NCBI GenBank assembly: GCA_010645155.1 | Contig: CM021321.1 | Coordinates: forward strand, 3,771,651 to 3,835,650 | DNA length: 64,000 nucleotides | Direction of reading: 5' to 3' | DNA from: Tigriopus japonicus | Taxonomy: Eukaryota; Arthropoda; Copepoda; Harpacticoida; Harpacticidae | In this document: piece after piece, positions 7,986 through 50,870 of the stretch | How positions within the stretch are numbered: the first letter of the stretch is position 1 | How the letters are laid out: each line of letters begins with the position of its first letter | Translations under genes and position numbers: made by a program | Notes under the pieces: model-generated | Told to the model about the DNA's origin: nothing | The model's input: the letters and a program-made list of their open reading frames with translations, nothing else | Databases searched by the model: none

Positions 7986-8348
7986 ATGTGGAAGTTTCCA
8001 CCTGACGATACTTCTGACTTGTGTGAGTCCCGTCTCCACCAGCAAACCACACGGGTAAACGTGGTTGGTTGGATGGTTGGTTGGTGGCCCCCTCGCTGGC
8101 AAAACCTTACTTATTCGTCGTCTTCCACGCTCACTTGGATATTCATTCCCGTCTTCTCAGTCTGTTGGTTGTGGGAGGGTGGTAAACGTCAAAAGTTCGT
8201 GACTCGTCTTCTTCCTTTGCCGTCTTGATCTTGATCATCATTTCCAACCAGCCACCAAAAAAACTAAGATCGCTCGTCTCGCTCGCGCAGAATGTGCCAT
8301 TGAGAACGGCGGGGAGAAAAGAAAGTTGTTGAAGAACGACAACACATC
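7986..8348 (+). promoter_or_regulatory. presumed promoter and 5' UTR of the GXYLT gene
   Basis: This non-coding stretch lies before the glycosyltransferase ATG. No TATA box or other clear core element is visible. It is assigned by position only. Confidence 0.25.
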
Positions 8349-11300
8349 ATGCCCCGTCTGAAAGACAAGCCCGTGAAGATCAATGGTCGGGACGTTCCGA
8401 ACCCTGGATTAAAATGGAACCACGTGTTATCCCGATTGGCACTCATCCCTATTTGTGTGTTGGTTTCGTTTCACTTGGTGCGATACCTTCAATACCCAAC
8501 CATCGAATTGCGGAGTCTCAATGCCGCCATGGCCGGGATTCAGAGTGTGTTGAAACAGGATTATTCCGAGGATTTTTTGACTGGCAATCGGAGCAGCGAA
8601 GCTCAAGTGATCACGATTGCCTTGGTGGCTTGTGGCAGCAAGGATCGCTTTGGTGAAGTGTCCGTGATCCTCAAATCTCTGCTCTTGTTTTCGACCTCCC
8701 CGTTCCAATTGGTCGTTTTCACGGACTCTCTCCGATCGGAAATCAGTGAGCTTCTCGAGCCGATTCGGACGCAGAAACCCCGGCAATTTGTCGATTTTAC
8801 CTATGAGATCAAGGAGCCCAATTATCCGGTGTCCGTGGAGAATCAAGAGATCAAGAACACGTTTCAAATGTGCGCCAGTTTGAGGCTGTTCTTGCCGGAT
8901 CTCTTGCCCCATGTGGATAAGATCTTGTATCTTGACACGGATATTGTCCTGTTGGACTCGTTGGACAATATTTGGAACCAGTTCCATATCATGAACGCCT
9001 CTCAAATGGCTGCTATGGCTCATGAGAACCAGGTCGAGATGTAAGTTGGGTGTGTTTACTTTCGATTTCGAGAAGCACGAATGCTAAACTAGTCACTATT
9101 GCGTGCAATTATGGTACGCTTCGTTGGAACCCTGAAGGAGAGTGATAAATTGGTTTCTAAATGCAGTCGTTGCAACGAAGCTTCAGAATTCAGCGCAAGA
9201 GTCTAAGATTTGCACCTCAAAATGATCGAAAGTTCGGATGTTCAGACAAGCGTCAAACTTTTCTTTTCTTGACAGTCCTTTTGTGTGTCGAACATGTTTC
9301 TCATCTTGAATAGTCCTCCAGATGGCGCCATTAATATTTATGGTTATTTGGCCACTTTGATCGAGCAGATGTAAAATTTAATTTTGCAACACCCACACCG
9401 AATTGAAAACCAATATATTTCTCATTCAACCAATTTATTGTCATGAAAAACGCAATTGATTTTTTGTTTGGAAAGATAGATATTTTCCCAAAGGACATAG
9501 TATTTTGACGTTTGTTAGTGATTTTATCTTCAACCCCTTAAGATCCTTGCGACTGTGATCCTTCGTCATTGTTAGACAAGCAACTTTAAAGTACCATATG
9601 TAACCCCAAAACCTCAAACAAGCACCAATCTTGCAACACGTGGCTTTTAAAATGTATGATCATATCGATGATTATTTTTCTTATATTGTAGCTTAGTGGT
9701 TACGGACAGATGGCGCTAAAGGCGACTTTTTATAAGAAAGCGCCAATTTCAAAAGGTTTAATAAAAGAAATTGTTTATTTTTTTTATCAATTTTAGCCTG
9801 AATGTATATTCGTATGCCAATTATCCCACAGTGAAGTTGGGTTTCAACTCGGGTGTGATGCTTATGGATCTGGAGAAGATGCGGCGCTCGTTTTGGATTG
9901 ACAAAAACTTGGCCATCTACAAACATCTGAGTGAACATCTAATCTTTGGAGATCAGGTAAATTCAACACATAAGCTCGCAGCGAAACAGGTTCTTCTCGT
10001 CGTTTTTTTTGCAGTAAAAGAACAATGTGAATCACCAGTAACATTTAAATCATATTAAAAATCTCTTAAAAGAATTAGGATCACGCGAAAGCAAATTTGG
10101 AATCGTGTGGGATGGACTACAATGACAACTTTAGCTTGGTTCTACATCTCTTTTTACTGGGTCAACCTCCAGACTTTTGACCTAGATCTCAGAGCGAGAT
10201 TAATGTAGTAGATGTCGGAGAAAGATCACAAAAAAGGAGAAAAAACGATCCACGTAATTGATCGCAGATAAACGAACATCGCAGGTATTTTTGATGGCGT
10301 ATTGCTGCAAGCCAAAGTTTGATGAACACTCATGGAAAATATTAGTTGTAATTCTGGCTTGAAATTGAAGCAAAGGAGATTCTTCTTTCTTTTCCATTTT
10401 CTCAGTCTTATAGCAATGAAAGGAAAAAGAGTCTTCTTGATGAGAGCAAGAATGCTAATCAAGCTTATTGTATTCGTTAAAATTATACTTGTGTTCTCCT
10501 CTCAATTCTTTTTAAAAGCAAGGTATAGAGAGCCTGGTTCTCATCTTATTTTTAATAGAAGTTTACATCAAGGTCAGTTTTCAAAGCCGGCAAAAATTTA
10601 CTCTCTCAAAAAGGGCCCTCATTGACGTGCTGTATTGTAATGTTTTACAGAGAGAATAGCCAAGGTAATTCAATTTGTAGTTTCAAATGAAGTTGATTCA
10701 TGAAAATGAATATGTTTGAATAAAACATTTGTAAAAAAATAAAAAATCCATGAACGAGAACTCAGTCAAGAAAAATACTCACTTGTACAAGGCCAGGATT
10801 AGGGAGTAATTGTTTAGACGATGTAATTGTTATAGTAATTGATTAAATTTTTCGACCAAGTAATCGCAATTGTAATCAATAACATTTTTTAAGTTTTTGA
10901 CCCAACCCTGAACAAGGCTATATAGTGACGGCAAAAAGAGTGCACCACAAGTAACTATTCTCAAGTCTAGTATCAGAACAAAAGCTACATACGTATTCGA
11001 AATCGAAAAAAGGCAGCAGAAGTGCAGTTATTCGAGCATGACTCCATGAAGGATTTACAATAGAATACCACTTATGACCTTGTTACTACAATGACAATTC
11101 AACGCACATGGTGTTTCTATAAGCGGACGAAGTTATCTATAAATTCCTAAAATATTTGAGACCAGTTTTGAGGTGTGAATGCAATACCGCACAGATACTG
11201 AAATTCTGTTAAGTAGGTCACGGGCAAAAAACTATGTAAGATGAATTTAAAACATGCTGAAAGATAATTTTTTGAATTGAACAGTTTTTCAAATCAAGTC

Positions 11301-13298
11301 TCAAGTAGTGTCATGAATGTGTTTACTTAAAATATTGTCGAAATCTTGGAAAAATTTGTGTAAATTGATGTAACGACTCTCCTGTTTGGTCCTTCGAGAA
11401 TGCCAAACTAAAATGCCATTGACAATAGATCCTCGAAATTGATTTTCGAAATATTTTAGCACAGGACTGCTCTTAGTACATCGAAGACTTTCTTCAAAGT
11501 AAATTTTCAAATATTTGTTTTAAGCACATTATAAGTGTAACACTATAAAGTTTTGCCCGTGGCCTATTCAACCGAATTCAAGTAAATGTTCGGCATTGCA
11601 TTTAGCTCAAAGAAATATCATGGAAATTAATAGCTTGTTTGCAATAGCTTCTCATTGTAGGAAATCTGTCGTTAATTTTTGTAACTCATTCTGAGAAATA
11701 GAGTATAACTGTATAGTATATATATAGCGGAAGTTGTTTGCACTTTAACTTTCATTGATGTCAAAATCCCATCATACGTCCACAAGAGACATATTTCCGC
11801 AGACACTGTCGCTTATTGTGAGGTCATAATACTAATGTAACCCATTGGGTTTTATTAATACCAGAGGGAGTGTAAGCCTAAAAATGTGTCTTCGGTCGCC
11901 AACTGTTGAGTGGACAAAAGTGCGGGAACATTTGAAATGTGTGACCAGGCAAATGACAACTATGCAATTGATGAATCAAAGGTGGAATTGAGTAATGTTT
12001 TTGGGTCATTTTTTCCTATTGCTAGTGGTCACTTTACCGAAAGAAACGAAAACGTTACTAGGTGACCATGTCTAGGATTTGAATACTACAACTTGGAACT
12101 TTTTTGCCAATACATGAAATAAGTCACTGATAGGAAAAAATACAAATTTACCCCTTCGTGTCAGGTAACATTAATCCAATATAAATATGGACAAAAATTG
12201 CAATAGCTTCAAGAACGAGTTTAAAAAAGTTGGAGTTGATTCGCATGTTTGGTCACACTATCTGTCCGCTCAACAGTTGTAAGGGCGACATTTTCCTCAT
12301 AAATTCAACGCATTCCGCCCCGCTATCCAAATCAGCCTGACTAATCCTTGCACGCTATCTAATGATTAATAAATGATCTAAGATGTAACCTCAAACCTTG
12401 ACACAAAAGTTTGCCCTGTTTTAGAACTTATCAGTACTGATAAAAGTTTAAATGTTTCCAGGTCTTAAAACGATGATCAGGCATTTTGTTGGTAAAAGCA
12501 TGAAAAATATCAGTTTGATTTATTTTTCCACACGTTTTAGATCATTCAAAAAGTGCATTTCGCAATTATCCTTTTGGTATGTTTCTGTTTTTTTTTTTTT
12601 GTATTTAAAATATGTTTAACCACTCTGCAGTACAAAGACGTCTTTCTAGGTTCGCTTGTCAAGTGTGAATGTATGTGAATATCATCAGCTCGCGCATTTC
12701 CTCAATTTGAATTTCAAAGCAAACATCGCCTCAGTACGGTTAACCAAACACGAGTCAAAATGCTAAATCCCTGTTAACAAATACTTGAGAACCCGGAAAA
12801 AGAAATCTCGTCTCATTCTCGTTGCAGGACATCATCAACATCTACGCACATTACTATCCCGAATCGATCCACGTGTTGCCTTGTACCATGAATTTTCGTC
12901 CTGATTTGTGTCTCCGTCCAGATGTGTCTTGTCCTGAAGTGCGAAGTGGCGATCGTGTGATGCTCCTCCACGGAAATCGAAGGGCCTTCATGGAGCAGTG
13001 GCAATTTGGAGGATCGCTCTTTACCTACTTATTGCAAGTGGTGCGTTGGTACTTGAAGAATGCCAACATCATTCCCTACTCGATTCGTGTAATTCCCACA
13101 GTGTACCAACAGAACGTCTACCAAGCCGTTCAAAGAACTTTCAATCAAATAGACTTGCGCAATCCCAACGTCAAGAAAGATGTGGAGCAGTTGTTCCTCC
13201 AGGGACTCAGCTCCTATTCCAATTTGGAAGGTGATATTTGTGCTGGAATTGTGGGCTCACTCAAGACCTCGTTCAAAGACAACTATGCCCTGTCCTGA
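8349..13298 (+). CDS. GXYLT: glucoside xylosyltransferase (GXYLT family, GT8)
   Basis: Three exons, 8349-9040, 9797-9956 and 12828-13298, join in frame to 440 residues, the length I recall for vertebrate GXYLT1. The protein is a type II Golgi/ER enzyme: a short basic N-terminus, a membrane anchor at about 29-46 (LALIPICVLVSFHLVRYL), a stem, then a GT8 fold. The metal-binding DXD is D196-T-D198 in ILYLDTDIVLLDSL. LGFNSGVMLMDLEKMR and the exon 2/3 junction FGDQ-DIINIY match the family's sugar-nucleotide and acceptor region, and MLLHGNRRAFM lies near the end. The family adds xylose from UDP-xylose to O-linked glucose on EGF repeats, for example in Notch. Splice donors are GTAAGT and GTAAAT. Intron 2 (2.9 kb) contains a hAT-like element at 11843-12382. 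A candidate poly(A) signal ATTAAA is at 13327-13332. The family call is firm; GXYLT1 versus GXYLT2 cannot be decided. Confidence 0.93.
10020..11830. other. part of GXYLT intron 2, no gene
   Basis: AT-rich intron sequence. Around 10800-10900 there is a patch of AATTGTAATTAC-type repeats like one at 38380-38460. This looks like an old dispersed repeat. Confidence 0.35.
11843..12382 (+). mobile_element. 540-bp hAT-like non-autonomous element, copy 1
   Basis: It is bounded by an exact 8-bp duplication ATGTAACC (11835-11842 and 12383-12390). A second copy of the same 540-bp length lies inverted at 47051-47590. Both copies start with CATTG and end with GATCTAAG. It lies inside GXYLT intron 2 and has no coding capacity. 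Confidence 0.8.
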
Positions 13299-13498: not shown

Positions 13499-14331
13499 CA
13501 AGAGTCGGCAACCTCTTTTGGGTGAAGTCCCACAAAATTTAGTTAAGTGTTGTCAAAGGCCCTGTAACGGCTGTAAGAGAATCTGTGATCACGGAAGCTT
13601 CAGTGGCAGCTTCAGTGACAGACCCGTCTACTCATACTTCTAGTCTAATGGGCAAGCTCATCCAAACGGCGTCAAACATCGTAGAGAACGGTGGACGCAG
13701 AAGAAGTACTTAGACGAGTGGTAAGCCTGAGGTGCAAGAAAGGAGAAGTACGAGGAGAAGCGGCAAGGGCATGCTTGCCCTGAACGCTGTCAAACGACGT
13801 AGAGAACGGTTGAATTACAAGAACAAGAAAGAAGTGCAAGGAGAAGCGCCAGCAGCAGCTAGGCAGTCAAGACTAAGAGAGAGAGTGCAATTAAAGAGAT
13901 GGCAGGTTTGCAAGCAACAAAGGCTGGCTTGCCCTGAGCTGACTTCAAAGTGCTTCTCTCAAGCCACCTAAGTAGTTCTGTTGTCTGCTCCCAAGGAGCG
14001 AGCTCGGGGTTAGCCCTTAGTGGCTCCAAAGGTGATTGAGGTAGAGACGCCTCTAGCGATCCCCTCTCTCCTTACGCACAAAAGCTGCTCTGAAAAAGCA
14101 AGCTGCCGTGACTACGAATTCTCTTACAGCCGCTTATACAAAGGCCCACCAAACAAACGTTGGTAGGTTCAGGGCCCACAAATTGGCGATCAAAGAGCTT
14201 GGGGCCTGCGAGTAAAGTTCTAAGAATGGCTCAGGGGTCCACTATTTTGGCTTTTGTCTACGGCTCCTGAGCCCACCAACGACCACCCTTGGGCCCCATG
14301 TGGGTTCGAGCCCACAAGTTGCCGACCCTTG
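13499..14331. mobile_element. 833-bp hAT-like MITE (CAAGGGTCGGCAA ends)
   Basis: Terminal inverted repeats CAAGAGTCGGCAA and, on the other strand, CAAGGGTCGGCAA are flanked by TTCTAGAC and TTCTGGAC, an 8-bp duplication with one mismatch. The interior has many GGCCCAC blocks and no open frame of note. A shorter relative lies at 19134-19365. Confidence 0.75.
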
Positions 14332-14339
14332 TTCTGGAC

Positions 14340-15462: not shown

Positions 15463-17602
15463 ATGAAGGCTTTCATCGGAACGGTCTCTGTCCTGTTGGC
15501 CTTGGCCCTCAGTCACCACCCTCATGTCGAGGCCAATCCTGTGGGCGTGGAGGAGGATTTGGCATCACCTCAAGCTGAAGATGCCCGAGGTAAATTTGTT
15601 TTTTAGTTTTCGTTTTTGATCTCAGGAAATTAGCATTCACCCTTTTACCATAATTAAAGGATTATGAGAAAAAAGGAAAGAGCTTAGTTGAAAGTGTTTC
15701 CATTACATTTACAATTGAATCGTGAGGCAACTTTAGCTCTCAATTTTTCAAATACAAAACACACATAAAAAACGTAAGAATGGACAGGTTGTGACAAACC
15801 ATGAAGGACTCTGATCGATACGGTGAGATTTATCGTTTTCTATTTTTTACGACCAATGCCAGTTTTCCGTTACATGAATTGGGGGACTTTCTTGTGAAGA
15901 ATCCATACATTAATTTTCAACTCAATCGAATGGATGAGTCAAAACTTATGCTCTCTCAAACCTCATTGTAGAATGCAAAGTAGAATGAATAAGCTAGCCC
16001 CTTTCTAGTGATTCTCCCACAAAAGGGCGGAGCTTATTCAAGTGCAAATATCTAAAGAGACATAACTCCGGCATTCGATTGAACCGAAATTTGAAATGTG
16101 CAATCAATTCAACCCAACATTGCATTCATTTGAAAACCAACTCCTTTCTCGTCGATTGCCACCTCGTCCAGTAATTTCAGTGTTTTTTCTCCTAACTGAC
16201 CATAGTGTCCAAAAATATCCCTGATTAATCATATTCTCATCTCCCTAGATCTTTATGGAAGTGGGTACTATCCATTAGGCAAACGTGGAAGTGTCAGGGA
16301 CAGCTTAAGAGACCTCCTTCATGCTTTGGAGACCGAGGCCTCTCTTGAAGCCGCCGAGGATGGAGAAGTCGAAGGTACGTACGTACGCACCAAGTGTTAG
16401 ATGAATGCTAGTGAATGGATGTAGTATGGAAGAAAGGATACATACAATTTATTGGTTTTTGTAGGAGACGGCTCTCCAATGATGATGGCACCTGGTCCCA
16501 TGTCGGGCCCCTCTGGCAACCTTCATTCCGTGGATAAAAGAAGACGTAAGAGCCGTTACGAGAAGCTGAAGCGTTAGTACCAACAATGAATTTTGTCTTT
16601 TTTCAAGTTTGGCCATGATTGCCGAAACTTTGTTGTTCTGTACTGTACTGTTCTTGTAGTTTATGAGCTTGGTTTGAGTTTGGAAATACTGTACCAACGC
16701 CATAATTTCCATTCATAATGCTCTTTGATTTGCATTTCCAGGTCGCCGATATGGATTCTGGGTGACTGCCATCAACAAAATGGGTAAGTGGTTCTTCTTA
16801 TTTCTTCATTGAGGGTCACTTTGGGTAAGACACATCCTGTAAGACCTCAATTTTGAAGCAATCAGCACTGTGTTTTCGACCTCAATTCCCAACAGTACAG
16901 GGGTGTCCTTGTGCTTTTGCGAATGCAATGAACGATTTTTGCTTCTACTTCAGATAACAACCACCTGAGTGGGTTCTTGGGCAAACATAGAAATATCTAT
17001 AACGTATTCAAGCGATCACAGGTAGATGTCTCGTTGCCACCACCTAAATTGAAAAATCATCTTTTGAAATTCCCCGACTTCTACGGTCGGATTTGCTGCT
17101 TTGCTTTGAGTTCCTCGCGTCGTTTCATTAAATCACTGTACTTCTTGGATTCTTTGTACAGACTGCATTTTTCCTCCATGGACTAGCAGACAAAATCTCC
17201 TTGTGATTTCTTCAGCTTGGTGTGAATTAGTACGTAGTGCAGCATGCATGCTTCATAGACTGGCCAAAACACTGACCTACATCCGCTTAAACCGCCTCAC
17301 CAATGTTTCGTACTTTCGCTCACTTGCAACATTGTTCGAAAAATTGTCGTCTCACCGGTGTTTTTTGTGCTCTTTTGCAGGGAATGTGAAGCGGGGTAGG
17401 CCATTTATCCCAGCTTTAGGCCAACCGATGGCCGACTTTCACAAAGAAAGTGAGTAAATTTCCAATTTTAACACAACCAAGTCGCCGAGGTTGCGTGAAA
17501 AGTACTCGGAACCTAGGCTTTATGTTCCCCAAAACCTAGTCAAATTATGGTGTTTGAAATTGTGAATTGACCCTGACCCTCTTTTCAGAGTACTTCGGTT
17601 AA
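15463..17602 (+). CDS. neuropeptide-like secreted precursor, family not recognised
   Basis: Exons 15463-15589, 16249-16374, 16465-16545, 16742-16783, 17381-17449 and 17589-17602 join at phase 1 throughout, giving 152 residues. The ATG at 15463 is chosen because it starts a signal peptide (MKAFIGTVSVLLALALS). After it come LYGSGYYPL-GKR (a dibasic site with an amidation glycine), an acidic spacer, then a basic run K-R-R-R-R-R before YGFWVTAINKM. The last exons add GNV-KR-GRPFIPALGQP and end in KYFG, where the final Gly could amidate Phe. An extra exon at 16954-17021 has good splice sites; its inclusion replaces the tail with DNNHLSGFLGKHRNIYN and leads to a stop three codons into the next exon. 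Reading through the third exon's donor gives RKSRYEKLKR and a stop at 16575-16577. There are no cysteines in the mature part. I could not match it to a known neuropeptide family. The exon model is inferred from splice signals. Confidence 0.62.
15911..16030. repeat. dispersed repeat copy (pair with 27199-27320)
   Basis: TAATTTTCAACTCAATCGAA, then a spacer and AATAAGCT-GCC, occurs here in intron 1 of the peptide gene and again near 27199-27320. The copies are similar but diverged. No ends were defined. Confidence 0.45.
16954..17021 (+). CDS. alternative exon of the peptide precursor
   Basis: It follows a CTACTTCAG acceptor, ends before GTAGAT, and adds DNNHLSGFLGKHRNIYNVF then KR-SQ. Its 68-bp length shifts the frame, so the next exon reads GM and stops. 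The encoded segment carries GK-HR and KR cleavage-like sites. It could be a cassette exon producing a different peptide. Confidence 0.5.
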
Positions 17603-17949: not shown

Positions 17950-17963
17950 TAATAAACCTTTAT
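17950..17963. terminator. palindromic poly(A) signal shared by convergent genes
   Basis: AATAAACCTTTATT reads AATAAA on both strands. It lies about 350 bp after the peptide-precursor stop (+) and about 150 bp after the kinase stop (-). It could therefore serve both convergent transcripts. Confidence 0.6.
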
Positions 17964-18113: not shown

Positions 18114-25861
<7,748 letters not shown>

Positions 25862-31742: not shown

Positions 31743-32757
31743 GGACTCAGTAAGACGTTCAAGAACCAACTGCTTTATTCAGAGAACAATGATGAATACT
31801 TTAATTAATAATATAATAATTTAATACAATAATTAACTATTGACTGCGTTAATCAAGATTGAACACTTCCCACTTTTGATGTCCCACGAAAAATGTTCCC
31901 ACTGTTTTTGATACAACCGTGCGGCGTGGTACTGAGGTAATCTCTTGGGATCTTTTCTGTCCTTCAGAGCAAAGATTATGGTCTGATACTCGGGATCTGA
32001 TTTTGCACTTGCTGAAAGAGAGCACATTGCTGGGTCGTTTATAGTTTTGAGCGTTTGAACGAGTGTAAGAGCAAGTGGTTCATTTTGGTCTTCACTGGAA
32101 GGTTCACTAGTCGGAGATCTTGACAGCGCGTCGGCTATTAGATGCTTTTTCCCAGGAGTCCAAACAATGTCGAACGTGTACGGAGCAAGCTTTTCTAACA
32201 CCCTTTGAAGGCGTGAATTGTCAATTGCGTCCAAATTTGACCTCTTGAAGACGCCAAGTAACGGTTTATGGTCAGTGATGACGCTGAATTTGGCACCAAT
32301 CTAATACATGCCACAACTGAATATTGCCCACTGGATAGCCGGGGCTAAGCGACGAGACTTGCCTGGAACATGTCGATGGTTTCGAGACATCGTTGACAGT
32401 GAGCATCAAGGTCAGAAAGAACCTCAATTGGGATATGATCCAGGTTTGAGTCTTCGGACACGGCCCAAAAGTCTGACAGCTCTGGTAACGCTACTTCTGT
32501 AGCCCCTGTGACTTGCACGTGCACGGTCTCCATTGGGATATGTAAATCCTACCGGCTACGCCATGTTGTTTTATCACCGAAACGTGCACTCAGTAAGACG
32601 TTCAAGAACCAACTGCTTTATTCAGAGAACAATGAATGATAAATACATTAATTATTGATTGCATTAATCAAGATCGAACAGTACTGACTGATCTTAAGGC
32701 TACATACTTTCATTTGAGGTTCCAACAATCTGAAGTAGACTTTGCTAAATACCACAC
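31743..32757 (-). mobile_element. Ty3/gypsy retrotransposon remnant with LTR pieces
   Basis: A pol remnant on the - strand (31833-32300) lies between two copies of an LTR-like stretch containing AACCAACTGCTTTATTCAGA (31743-31795 and 32584-32640). On the - strand these contain an AATAAA. Confidence 0.55.
31833..32300 (-). pseudogene. RNase H / linker part of a Ty3/gypsy pol gene
   Basis: On the - strand the frame reads TDHKPLLGVFKRSN, then LQRVLEKLAPYTFDIVWTPG and KKHLIADALSRSP. This is the usual end of a gypsy RNase H domain. It continues as a less conserved linker to a stop near 31833. Reverse transcriptase and integrase are not seen nearby, so the copy is truncated. Nearby LTR-like repeats support the assignment. 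Confidence 0.8.
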
Positions 32758-32868
32758 TAGCCAGGGATAACCTATATAATAGTATTTCAGTGGTTCCTGC
32801 ACTAGCATACGCTGGGAATTTCAAAGATTTCCAAGTTAACTTTCGTAGACCAAAACGGAGGGATTTTA

Positions 32869-33446
32869 ATGTTTTTGATCAAGCTTAATGAAAAAGGTGA
32901 GCAAACTGGTAAGAAGATATTCATTGTCGAATCAGTTAAGGAGGTCAAGGGGGTCTACAGGACCAGACACCCGGCCCAGGTGATGGTCCTGGGGGTCGTG
33001 GCCTCCGACGGCAAGAGGATGCCGCCGCACTTTTTCAAGGCCGGGGAGAAAATCGGCGCGGAGGCCTATTATAAAATCCTGAGGTTCATTGTTTTGCCCT
33101 GGCTCAAGACCAACTACCCCATAAACAACTACGTGTGGACCCAGGACGGCGCACCGGCACACGCGGCAAAGAGGGTGCAGAAGTTCTGTTGGGAGAATTT
33201 TGTGGATTTCTGGCCGGCCGACATGTGGCCGGCGTCATCACCAGATTTGAACCCTTTGGACTTCGGTGTGTGGGGCAATTTGGAGGAGACCAACAAGACA
33301 AGACCCCTCATCCCAACACCGAGGCATCAAAGTCCAGCATTATGGAGGCATGGACCGGCATGTCCAAGGCCTTCGTGATCAAAAGCTGTGCGACTGTCCG
33401 ACCTCGTGTGGAGGAGGTTGTACGTCAAATTTGGAGGACACATTGA
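32869..33446 (+). pseudogene. maT-type mariner transposase (DD37D), truncated and frameshifted
   Basis: The frame starts inside the catalytic domain near the first-Asp region (KKIFIVESVKEVKGVYR). It runs through VLGVVASDGKRMPPHF, WTQDGAPAHAAK and SSPDLNPLDFGVWGNLEE. Between the Asp of TQDGA and the Asp of NPLD there are 37 residues, as in maT elements. After GNLEE the frame breaks; the C-terminal part continues in another frame (SSIMEAWTGMSKAFV to a stop at 33446). The helix-turn-helix N-terminus is missing. A terminal-repeat-like CACCCTGTA lies at about 33568-33576. A separate N-terminal piece of a similar transposase lies at 45574-45789 on the other strand. Confidence 0.8.
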
Positions 33447-39401: not shown

Positions 39402-39874
39402 GTAAGTGAATTTCAATGAGCTTCTTACAAAAAGGCACTACTTTTCTTCAATATTATTGTATGTTTGTTATTCTCAAGGCTTTAGCTGTTCCTCGAAAAT
39501 AAGATCGGATTACAGTTCCCGTTTCATCCTCCATAATGAGGAACGCGTTACTGCGGAATTCCTTTTTGAAAAAAGGAATGGCATTACAAAGTACAAAGTA
39601 CTTTTTTGAAAGGGCACATATTCAAGATGGTTGAAGGTGTGACTTTAAACATCTCAATCACAATAATTAAGTTTTAAACTTAAAATTTGAGGCTTCTAAG
39701 AAGTATTTTAAGACAATGCCATTCAACGCTTATCTGATACTTTTTATAAGTTTTGAAAACCATGTGATTTAATAGTCAAATCCTAACCTAACCTAACCCA
39801 AGGACTCTTGAACAGGAGGGCCCCTGCCTAACCTAACCCTTTGGATCCCTTCCTCGACTGATGAGAATGGGATT

Positions 39875-41494
39875 GATAGTCAGTATAATCAACTGGAGGA
39901 TCTGGTAGTCACAGATCAAGATGCTTTTGAGGCCATCAAGAGCTTAAAGCTCTCGAGTTCTCCTGGACCTGATGGTATGACATCTCAGTTTCTGATGAAA
40001 TGTTCACAGATTCTTGCCCCAGTTTTCTCCTACTTGATGCGTTGCATCTTTGATCAAGGCAATTTTCCCTCTTCTCTAAAAGTAACTCATGTCGTTCCAA
40101 TATTTAAGGGCAGAGATAAGTCACTCCCTAGTAATTATAGGCCCATTTCTCTTACCTCCAGCGTTGCAAAGGTTTTTGAGAAGATTATGAAGTCCAAGCT
40201 TGTAGATTTTTTGGAAGTCCATGATTTAATTCCTTCTGGACAGCATGGGTTTCGAGCTCATTTTAGTACAGTAACCCAATTGGTTGATCATATTGAGCAA
40301 ATCATTGAAGGGCTCGAAAGTCACGAGTCAGTTGATGTAGTCTATCTTGACTTTGCCAAGGCCCTTGATAAGGTAGATCATTGTCTTTTGCTTGATCAAC
40401 TCAAAGAGCTTGGAATCCAGGGTAAGGTCCTGAATTGGATTGATAGTTTTATGAGCGAAAGGAAGCAAATAGTTTAAGTTGGAGGATCTTTTAGTGGCAA
40501 GTATGATGTCAAGTCAGGTGTTCCGCAAGGTTCAATTTTAGGTCCGGTCTTGTTTATTCTCTTTATTGCTCCTCTCCAGAAGTTTAGAACAAAAGCCAGT
40601 ATTTCTTCATATGCTGATGACACAAAATTAGTTTGTGGAAGGAATGGTCAGGACTCAAAATATTTAGTTCAGGGCTTAGAGAAAATCTACTCTTGGGTTG
40701 GCGAGAGTAATATGGCATTGAACGAGATGAAATTCCGCACACTGACGTATGAGGCGTCAAAATTAGATGTTTCACTCAAAGACAACGGAGGTCGTGATAT
40801 TGAGCAGGTATCCTCCATGAGGGATTTAGGAGTTGTCGTCCAAAATGATGGAAAGTTCGATGAGCATATCCAGTTGAAAGTGGGGAAGGCATTTCAAACG
40901 TGCGGCTGGATCTATCGCACTTTCAATTTCAGAGATAGTATTACGATGCTAACTCTGTACAAGTCGATTGTTCAGCCTCATCTTGAATATGCCTCCCCCA
41001 TTTGGGCTCCAATGAGTTCGGCAGGTTTGCAAAAGGTCGAGCAGGTCCAAAGATGTTTCACTAGGAACATCACAGGAATGAGAGAGCTCTCGTATTGGGA
41101 GAGGCTCCAAAAGTTAGGGATGTACAGTACTCAGAGAAGGTATGAAAGGTATCTGATACTGTATGTTTTCAAGAGCGTTCATGGGTTCTGTCCTAACCCG
41201 GGATTTGAAATCAGTTGTAGTGATCGTAGAGATTTTACGTGCGTTTTGAGAGCACCTCCAAATCCAAGGGAATCAAGGCTAGTTCGAACAATGAAGTCCT
41301 CCTCTCTTCTTTATCGGGCTCCTTCATTGTTCAATTTGTTGCCTATTTGCCTTCGTCGGGAATTTGTAGGAGCTGATCCTCTAACAGCATTTAAAAGAGG
41401 ATTAGACAAATTTTTAAAAACTATTCCTGACCAACCCACTGAACAAGGCCCCCCCAAAAAAGAACGATGTCAAGTTACAAGTGAGATCTCGTAA
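39875..41494 (+). pseudogene. LINE (non-LTR) reverse transcriptase with one in-frame stop
   Basis: One frame runs from about 39875 to the stop at 41492-41494 and is broken only by a TAA at 40475-40477. Before it: SSSPGPDGMTSQ, NYRPISLTSSVAKVFE, GQHGFRAHFSTVTQL and VYLDFAKALDKVDH. After it: SGVPQGSILGPVLF and the catalytic YADD (SSYADDTKL), then a thumb and C-terminal region. The endonuclease and ORF1 are absent, so it is 5'-truncated. The stop sits at a position usually Gln in RT 'RKQxV' contexts, consistent with a single C-to-T change. A second, shredded copy is at 49505-52003. It lies in the sense direction inside the collagen gene's presumed first intron. Confidence 0.9.
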
Positions 41495-48279: not shown

Positions 48280-49239
<960 letters not shown>

Positions 49240-49799
49240 TAAGTACATCCCATCTCACGCCGGGATGTTTGGCTAAGAGTTATCAAAGTGTCGTGAGATC
49301 AATCTCACCATTTCCAAGAAAAAACTACTGTACATGTGGGCAGAGGAATGAAATTGGCAGGATATATTATTTCAACTTCTGGGTCAAACCTGACCCGGAG
49401 GAAATGTTGGCCCTGAAAAAAAATCCCCCCAAGAAAAGATATATCTTCCCTTTGTTTTTCCCTAGGTTTGGCAAGTCACTTAAGTATTTTTGTCAGATTT
49501 GGCTCAAATAACCAGGGGTATGAGATCTTTACTTAAAAAGGATTCTGCGTATATATGGTCACATGAGATTTCAGAAGAATTTGACAAGTCAAGAGAGCTT
49601 TCAACAATGTGTTTACCAACACAAAGAGGAAATGAAACATCCAGTAGGACCTTTTGAGTACGACGATAAAACTGCTTATGATAGTGAAGTTATGGCCAAT
49701 ATGCTTGGAGATCAGTTCTCAAGTGTATTTTCAATTCTAAAAAGGATAGGAAAGGCTAGTATGACGCGATGACATGATGCTAGTATTGTTGTTGATGAG

Positions 49800-50547
49800 C
49801 AGGGCCACCAGATAGATGTAAATTACATTTTACAATGTGATTACCAAAATCTGCCATTTTTGTCCAAAATTACATAAATAAGGAAAAAATTAAATAAACG
49901 TGCAAAAATTGCCTGTTTTGATGGATATGATATGGAAAATTACTTGATTTTACATCAAAGTCAAGATAAAGAAGCAAGAACAGTGTTTTGAATTATTTTT
50001 AACAAGTATATTTAGTTTATCATCAGGCCCGCTGGACTGTTATAAATGGTATTTTACATTGTTGTCACAAAAACGTGCAATTCTTTATTGAAAACTACAA
50101 AAATTGGGAAGATTTCGAGAGAATGTAGGAAAAATGCCTCGTCCATTGAGAGTGATGTCAAAAATCAAAATAATAATAGAACCTGTTATATTTGCAACAA
50201 TTGTGACAAAATATGGTCATTTCAGCATCTGTTCCTAGCTATGAAAAAAAAGGGCAGTTTTTAGGTAATAAAACGAGAAAAGTATTAAAAATATTAACAA
50301 AAAATCCAATTTTGTTACGTTATTTCTCAAAAACTACCAAAAATAAAGCATGTTTAATATCTTAAATAAATTTGATTGTAGCGCACTGTATTTATGTTAA
50401 TAAATGAGAAAAAGCTCTAAAAATAGAACTACCAAACAACCAAAAAAACTACCAAAAAATCCAATTTCATTACATTATTTTCAAGAAAAAACTACCAAAA
50501 AAAATACATTTTTTGGCAATTTTTTTTACCAAAATTTGGTGGCCCTG
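49800..50547 (-). mobile_element. 748-bp hAT-like MITE (CAGGGCCACCA ends), copy 2
   Basis: It is flanked by exact TTGATGAG at 49792-49799 and 50548-50555. Removing it and one duplication gives a sequence collinear with LINE copy 1 (CTGATGAGAATGG), which confirms the insertion. It is inverted relative to copy 1 at 43399. Confidence 0.92.
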
Positions 50548-50870
50548 TTGATGAGATTGACATTGATTGTCAGGATAATCGATTGGAGGATCTGGTAGTC
50601 ACAGATCAAGATGCTTTTGAGGCCATCAAGAGCTTAAAGCTCTCGAGTTCTCCTGGACCTGATGGTGTGACATCTCAGTTTCTGATGAAATTTTCACAGA
50701 TTCTTGCCCCTGTTTTCTCCTTTTTCATGCGTCGCATATTAGATGAGGGCGGGTTTCCCTCCTCATTGAAAGTAGCTCATGTTGTTCCAATTTTTAAGGG
50801 CGGAGATAAGTCTCATTCTTGTAATAATGAGCCCATTTCACTAACTCCAGTATAGCAAAAGTATTTGAGA

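Follow-up and report, generated by a model that had tools for sequence, protein, structure and literature searches.

The 64,000-nucleotide stretch of the Tigriopus japonicus genome considered here (the window; contig CM021321.1 of assembly GCA_010645155.1, positions 3,771,651 to 3,835,650) contains a seven-exon gene on the forward strand at 15463-17602 that encodes a predicted peptide precursor, and each of its introns is bounded by GT and AG. With a probability of about three in four, this is the single-copy prohormone gene of an undescribed copepod peptide family whose peptide tail is switched by splicing, as in the CHH/ITP genes. Two precursors are possible from the one gene structure, and they are identical through the 11-residue head YGFWVTAINKM. 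The protein search proposed in the first-pass annotation for the spliced product finds that its segments and splice alternatives recur in related proteins, and a real, conserved, splice-switched precursor that founds a new copepod peptide-hormone family is the most likely reading of the locus.

Exon 1 (15463-15589) carries the start codon, a putative signal peptide, and the beginning of the propeptide, and it is matched in the Tigriopus californicus protein P0001. The N-terminal hydrophobic stretch, MKAFIGTVSVLLALALS followed further on by VEA-N, is visible by eye where the signal peptide had been described, and a helix at residues 4-24 is predicted in the relative P0059. Exon 2 (16249-16374) encodes the peptide DLYGSGYYPLGKR and a spacer, with a helix predicted at 55-90 in P0059, and is matched at the exon level in the assembly. 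Exon 3 (16465-16545) contributes an acidic, Met-Pro-containing spacer and then a predicted convertase site, HSVDKRRR, of which HxVxKR is conserved. Exon 4 (16742-16783) encodes the common head at 16750-16782 and is followed by the optional 68-nucleotide exon 5 (16954-17021), exon 6 (17381-17449), and exon 7 (17589-17602). A candidate polyadenylation signal on the same strand, AATAAA at 17951-17956, is noted for its position only.

Exons 1, 2, 3, 4, 6, and 7 joined in phase 1 give the isoform A precursor of 152 residues, which runs from the hydrophobic start through DLYGSGYYPLGKR, a spacer, HSVDKRRRRR, YGFWVTAINKM, and GNVKR to GRPFIPALGQPMADFHKEKYFG. Exon 6 supplies GNVKR-GRPFIPALGQPMADFHKE, and the part downstream of GNVKR extends from GRPF to KYFG. 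Exon 7 encodes KYFG and the stop, a predicted amidated end that is also present in P0001. Isoform B includes exon 5, which has good splice signals and encodes the tail DNNHLSGFLGKHRNIYNVFKRSQ; here YGFWVTAINKM is followed by DNNHLSGFLGKHRNIYNVF, KR, SQGM, and a stop within exon 6. Because exon 5 has 68 nucleotides and ends in phase 0, exon 6 is read in another frame, as GM and a stop at TGA 17387-17389.

These structures bear out much of the first-pass annotation and amend the rest. The GKR, the lysine with five following arginines, and the KR sites are present as described, with predicted basic convertase sites flanking the conserved mature segment (K-R5 before it and KR after it), and skipping 16954-17021 does give a tail ending in KYFG. 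The phase-1 junctions said to hold throughout fail at the exon 5 donor. A near-immediate stop does follow the inclusion of exon 5, but the peptide of that form runs on to YNVFKRSQGM. The annotation proposed two or three alternative peptide sets per gene; two C-terminal outcomes stand, and a third made by intron retention is doubtful. Read at the sequence level, the switch would alter the tail of one peptide while keeping its 11-residue head, and isoform A would add a separate downstream peptide.

The gene is single copy: four exon matches in an assembly search all fall at one locus, and the 194.9-Mb assembly yields a single hit to the YGFWVTAINKM-type coding pattern, against 0 in the control. 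Three protein searches, the second of which scored the 7982 candidates with the most words in common, returned 103 proteins; the first 100 were typed by tail, and P0101-P0103 were fetched afterwards. Nineteen are A-type, 63 are B-type, seven have other ends (P0025, P0047, P0084, and P0097-P0100), and 11 are frames with exon 5 only (P0086-P0096), so that 18 of the 100 lie outside the A/B count. P0101, a EukProt entry with RYGFWISAINKAGNVKRS, has an E value of only 0.2 and may be a distant member, perhaps outside the copepods seen. A scan of viral contigs gave 428 pattern matches, none of them a relative. Absence of the family outside copepods cannot be claimed, because the protein searches require common 5-residue words.

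Members with species names come from T. californicus (P0001), Oithona nana (P0050), and the salmon louse Lepeophtheirus salmonis (P0085). The closest is P0001, isoform X2 of T. californicus LOC131891372, which is annotated as uncharacterized and is 89% identical over its full length; 16 of 152 residues differ from isoform A, none of them within residues 99-144. LOC131891372 is orthologue-like, with the same head and K-R5, and P0001 represents its isoform A. P0085, an "uncharacterized protein", is likewise orthologue-like by this head and K-R5, and only its A type is among the proteins found.

The splice switch itself recurs in these relatives. Eleven of the 19 A-type proteins have a B-type partner with an upstream identity of at least 0.97, as expected from one gene with two splice forms, and five pairs reach 1.0 over the aligned part (P0004/P0053, P0007/P0054, P0008/P0052, P0011/P0028, and P0015/P0035; P0011 is four residues longer than P0028). 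P0058, P0059, and P0060 all terminate in KRSQGM. This SQGM corresponds to exon 5 running into frame-shifted exon 6, and the unusual junction therefore exists in relatives. P0086 reads through exon 5 to a later exon-6-like GNVKR...FIPALG in one frame and looks like unspliced DNA.

Conservation is concentrated on the predicted mature peptide. Mean identity of the 63 B-type proteins to the window is 0.22 in the signal, 0.27 in the pro-region, 0.79 at the basic site, 0.97 in the head, and 0.71 in the exon 5 tail, the last computed over 21 residues. Across both types, signal and pro-region stay at 0.22-0.28, whereas the head reaches 0.97 in B-type and 0.95 in A-type proteins and is identical in 60 of 91 relatives. 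For the 18 A-type proteins other than that of T. californicus, on which the 0.95 is also based, GNVKR averages 0.71 and the final 22 residues only 0.24. The Phe-amide peptide suggested as possible by the first-pass annotation is thus poorly supported as the important product, and the terminal Phe-Gly is limited to the window and two of the 19 A-type proteins (P0001 and P0085). Of the predicted products, the head and the isoform B tail are conserved, and the KYF peptide is not. Twelve of the 19 A-type proteins may nevertheless be amidated, because their C-terminal residue is glycine. Directly after the head, a GKR amidation site stands in 15 of the 19, and GNVKR stands in the window and the other four.

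Intron 3 offers a candidate third form just before the head. It is 196 nucleotides long, and reading through it gives RKSRYEKLKR and a stop, from which the first-pass annotation derived a third C-terminus by retention. The read-through is there, but the third end YEKLKR is doubtful because these bases can also be explained by an alternative donor that keeps the reading frame. Splicing after 16572 (AGC/GTTAGT) would extend exon 3 by 27 nucleotides (16546-16572, forward strand) and add nine residues, RKSRYEKLK, before RRRYGFW. Relatives agree better with this donor: 19 of 82 carry inserts at exactly the junction of exon 3 with RYGFW and read through into RYGFW, and in five of the 19 inserts, as in the window extension, LK stands directly in front of RRR. 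Eleven of these 19 have an insert-free partner that is identical over the final 60 upstream residues. Eight inserts contain CxxC (P0050, P0054, P0056, P0069-P0071, P0074, and P0077); P0079 could not be parsed. True retention, which would yield a precursor ending in RKSRYEKLKR and lacking the YGFW peptide, draws on the shortness of the intron, the stop directly after, and the weakness of the competing donor, which scores 1.47 with general consensus frequencies, ranks 41st among the 131 GT sites of the gene, and is equalled by 26% of those in the window. No fetched relative terminates at this point, and retention is unlikely. The alternative donor at 16572 is the more likely source of a third form, on the pattern of inserts in relatives.

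A domain of about 70 residues with six conserved cysteines is the hallmark of the CHH/ITP superfamily. Neither window isoform contains a cysteine or matches Pfam, and the six-cysteine pattern is matched by none of the 91 relatives. The window gene is an analogue of CHH/ITP and not a member, because it has no cysteines, and no homology to CHH is detectable between the sequences. The likeness lies in the gene logic: in both cases one arthropod gene uses an optional exon, located upstream of its final coding exon, to switch the C-terminus of a mature peptide while its N-terminal part is kept, and a separate stop ends the long form (PMC7560641). As described there, CHH-L is never amidated, and exons 1, 2, and 4 or exons 1, 2, 3, and 4 of CHH/CHH-L produce two peptides that are alike for 40 residues and then differ. 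Against that account, the window gene has a common head of 11 residues rather than 40, and its stop arises by a frame-shift into the next exon, whereas the CHH/ITP stop lies inside the optional exon.

Membership in a known family is rejected on the Pfam, NCBIfam, PDB sequence, and family-motif results, and the first-pass annotation was right to leave YGFWVTAINKM unplaced. Neither window isoform matches a Pfam family, PDB sequences give no match at E values up to 10, and none of 28 neuropeptide family motifs, compiled by hand rather than taken from a database, matches either isoform. When 23 B-type sequences were compared with Pfam and NCBIfam, only four and ten families appeared, each with one member (best E values of 0.022 and 0.0077), and these matches were treated as chance. 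Among the 91 relatives, these motifs are matched only as cysteine spacings (a CCHamide-like spacing in two and any two cysteines in 11). The peptide strings and locus name were not found in a literature search that left out supplementary files, subscription journals, and preprints, and the peptide may be published elsewhere. Two passages of PMC8301441 name no such peptide.

The precursor could still belong to one of the known arthropod neuropeptide families and have diverged so strongly that the defining motif is lost or hidden. Its layout is typical of such precursors, and a protein search by short words would overlook very distant relatives. Arthropod tachykinins end in FxGxR-amide, which the SGFLG string of exon 5, together with the predicted dibasic processing, resembles; an FxGxR-Gly-basic ending is found in neither the window nor the 91 relatives. 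The head and tail are also fixed and dissimilar to the family motifs, and with the negative database results this origin is quite unlikely. Slightly less remote, and still improbable, is a secreted peptide with a role outside the nervous system, for example an antimicrobial or an epithelial factor, whose active form would include the basic runs. The cationic character of the segment fits this, as do three helices predicted over the peptide in P0059 (124-133, 136-145, and 147-158), in a model with a predicted local distance difference test score mostly of 65-82 in that block, a mean of 66.6, and a predicted template modelling score of 0.27. However, the mature segment is nearly fixed, with 60 of 91 heads identical, while its flanks diverge, and alternative tails and the GKR amidation sites of relatives are typical of signalling peptides.

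Nonsense-mediated decay has a usual limit for the distance from a stop to the last junction, and the isoform B stop lies 60 nucleotides upstream of that junction, near this limit. This early stop and the frame-shift behind it are what an exon 5 serving as a poison exon would produce, with isoform A alone functional and expression lowered by decay. Yet exon 5 is conserved as protein and has its own KR site, B-type proteins outnumber A-type proteins by 63 to 19, and the tails that follow YKR vary like coding ends rather than sharing one stop. The poison-exon reading is accordingly rejected as very improbable.

The position of the isoform B stop also counts against a splice-switched prohormone, and it is joined by several other points. 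The short peptide of the window, which ends in GNVKR, would not be amidated. P0025, P0047, and P0084 end after the head as MER, MGK, and MGIQPYLPYQFLRH and match neither isoform; they are possibly products of retained introns or other exons. Both isoforms of the window species are predicted from genomic DNA alone, the comparison with T. californicus uses the isoform X2 model and not X1, and the spliced-RNA status of relatives is deduced from short contigs that encode an entire precursor (for example, 908-1111 nucleotides for P0058-P0060).

Under the proposed mechanism, the splice-switched precursor would be secreted and cut at its K-R5 and KR sites by enzymes of the furin/prohormone-convertase type. 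Skipping exon 5 would release the short peptide YGFWVTAINKMGNV and a separate downstream peptide ending in KYF-Gly. Including it would exchange this tail for a conserved extension of 19 residues plus a dibasic site, followed by an immediate stop, and the weak donor at 16572 probably supplies a third option, kept in frame and placed directly upstream of the head. By analogy with CHH/CHH-L and ITP/ITP-L, the constant head may contact the receptor, and the tail selected by splicing may decide which receptor is preferred, how stable the peptide is, or what role it has in a tissue. The fuller proposal has somewhat better than even odds: a new copepod family with a short and a long hormone, a common 11-residue head, and an optional third insert, in which three combinable modules represent an independent invention of the CHH/ITP switch.

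Elsewhere in the window, a dispersed repeat of about 200 base pairs lies upstream of the gene at 14133-14336, with 40 scored matches in the assembly from 1606 first-look candidates, and a 72-nucleotide part of it recurs downstream of the gene at 19209-19280 with 74% identity. A glycosyltransferase family 8 exon (Pfam E value 1.8e-11) and a reading frame with collagen repeats are found on the forward strand at 8304-9044 and 48280-49242, and protein kinase exons are found on the reverse strand at 23603-23956 and 24211-24663. The reading frame at 12789-13298 has no Pfam match, and Rfam and tRNA scans returned 0 matches. A reverse-transcriptase remnant at 39812-41494 consists of two adjoining frames split by a stop, with RVT_1 in the second, and 50427-50855 is a similar fragment. 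Transposase-like (DDE_3; 32806-33378) and RNase H-like (31833-32300) segments both fall under the curated Pfam cut-off.

Copepods are highly abundant animals whose endocrine control is poorly known. A conserved peptide gene present in one copy, switched by splicing, and outside the known families would represent a new signalling system and provide a ligand for pairing with orphan receptors. It would also offer a clean case for studying how alternative splicing re-targets a hormone, and the presence of the gene in the salmon louse lineage gives it applied interest.
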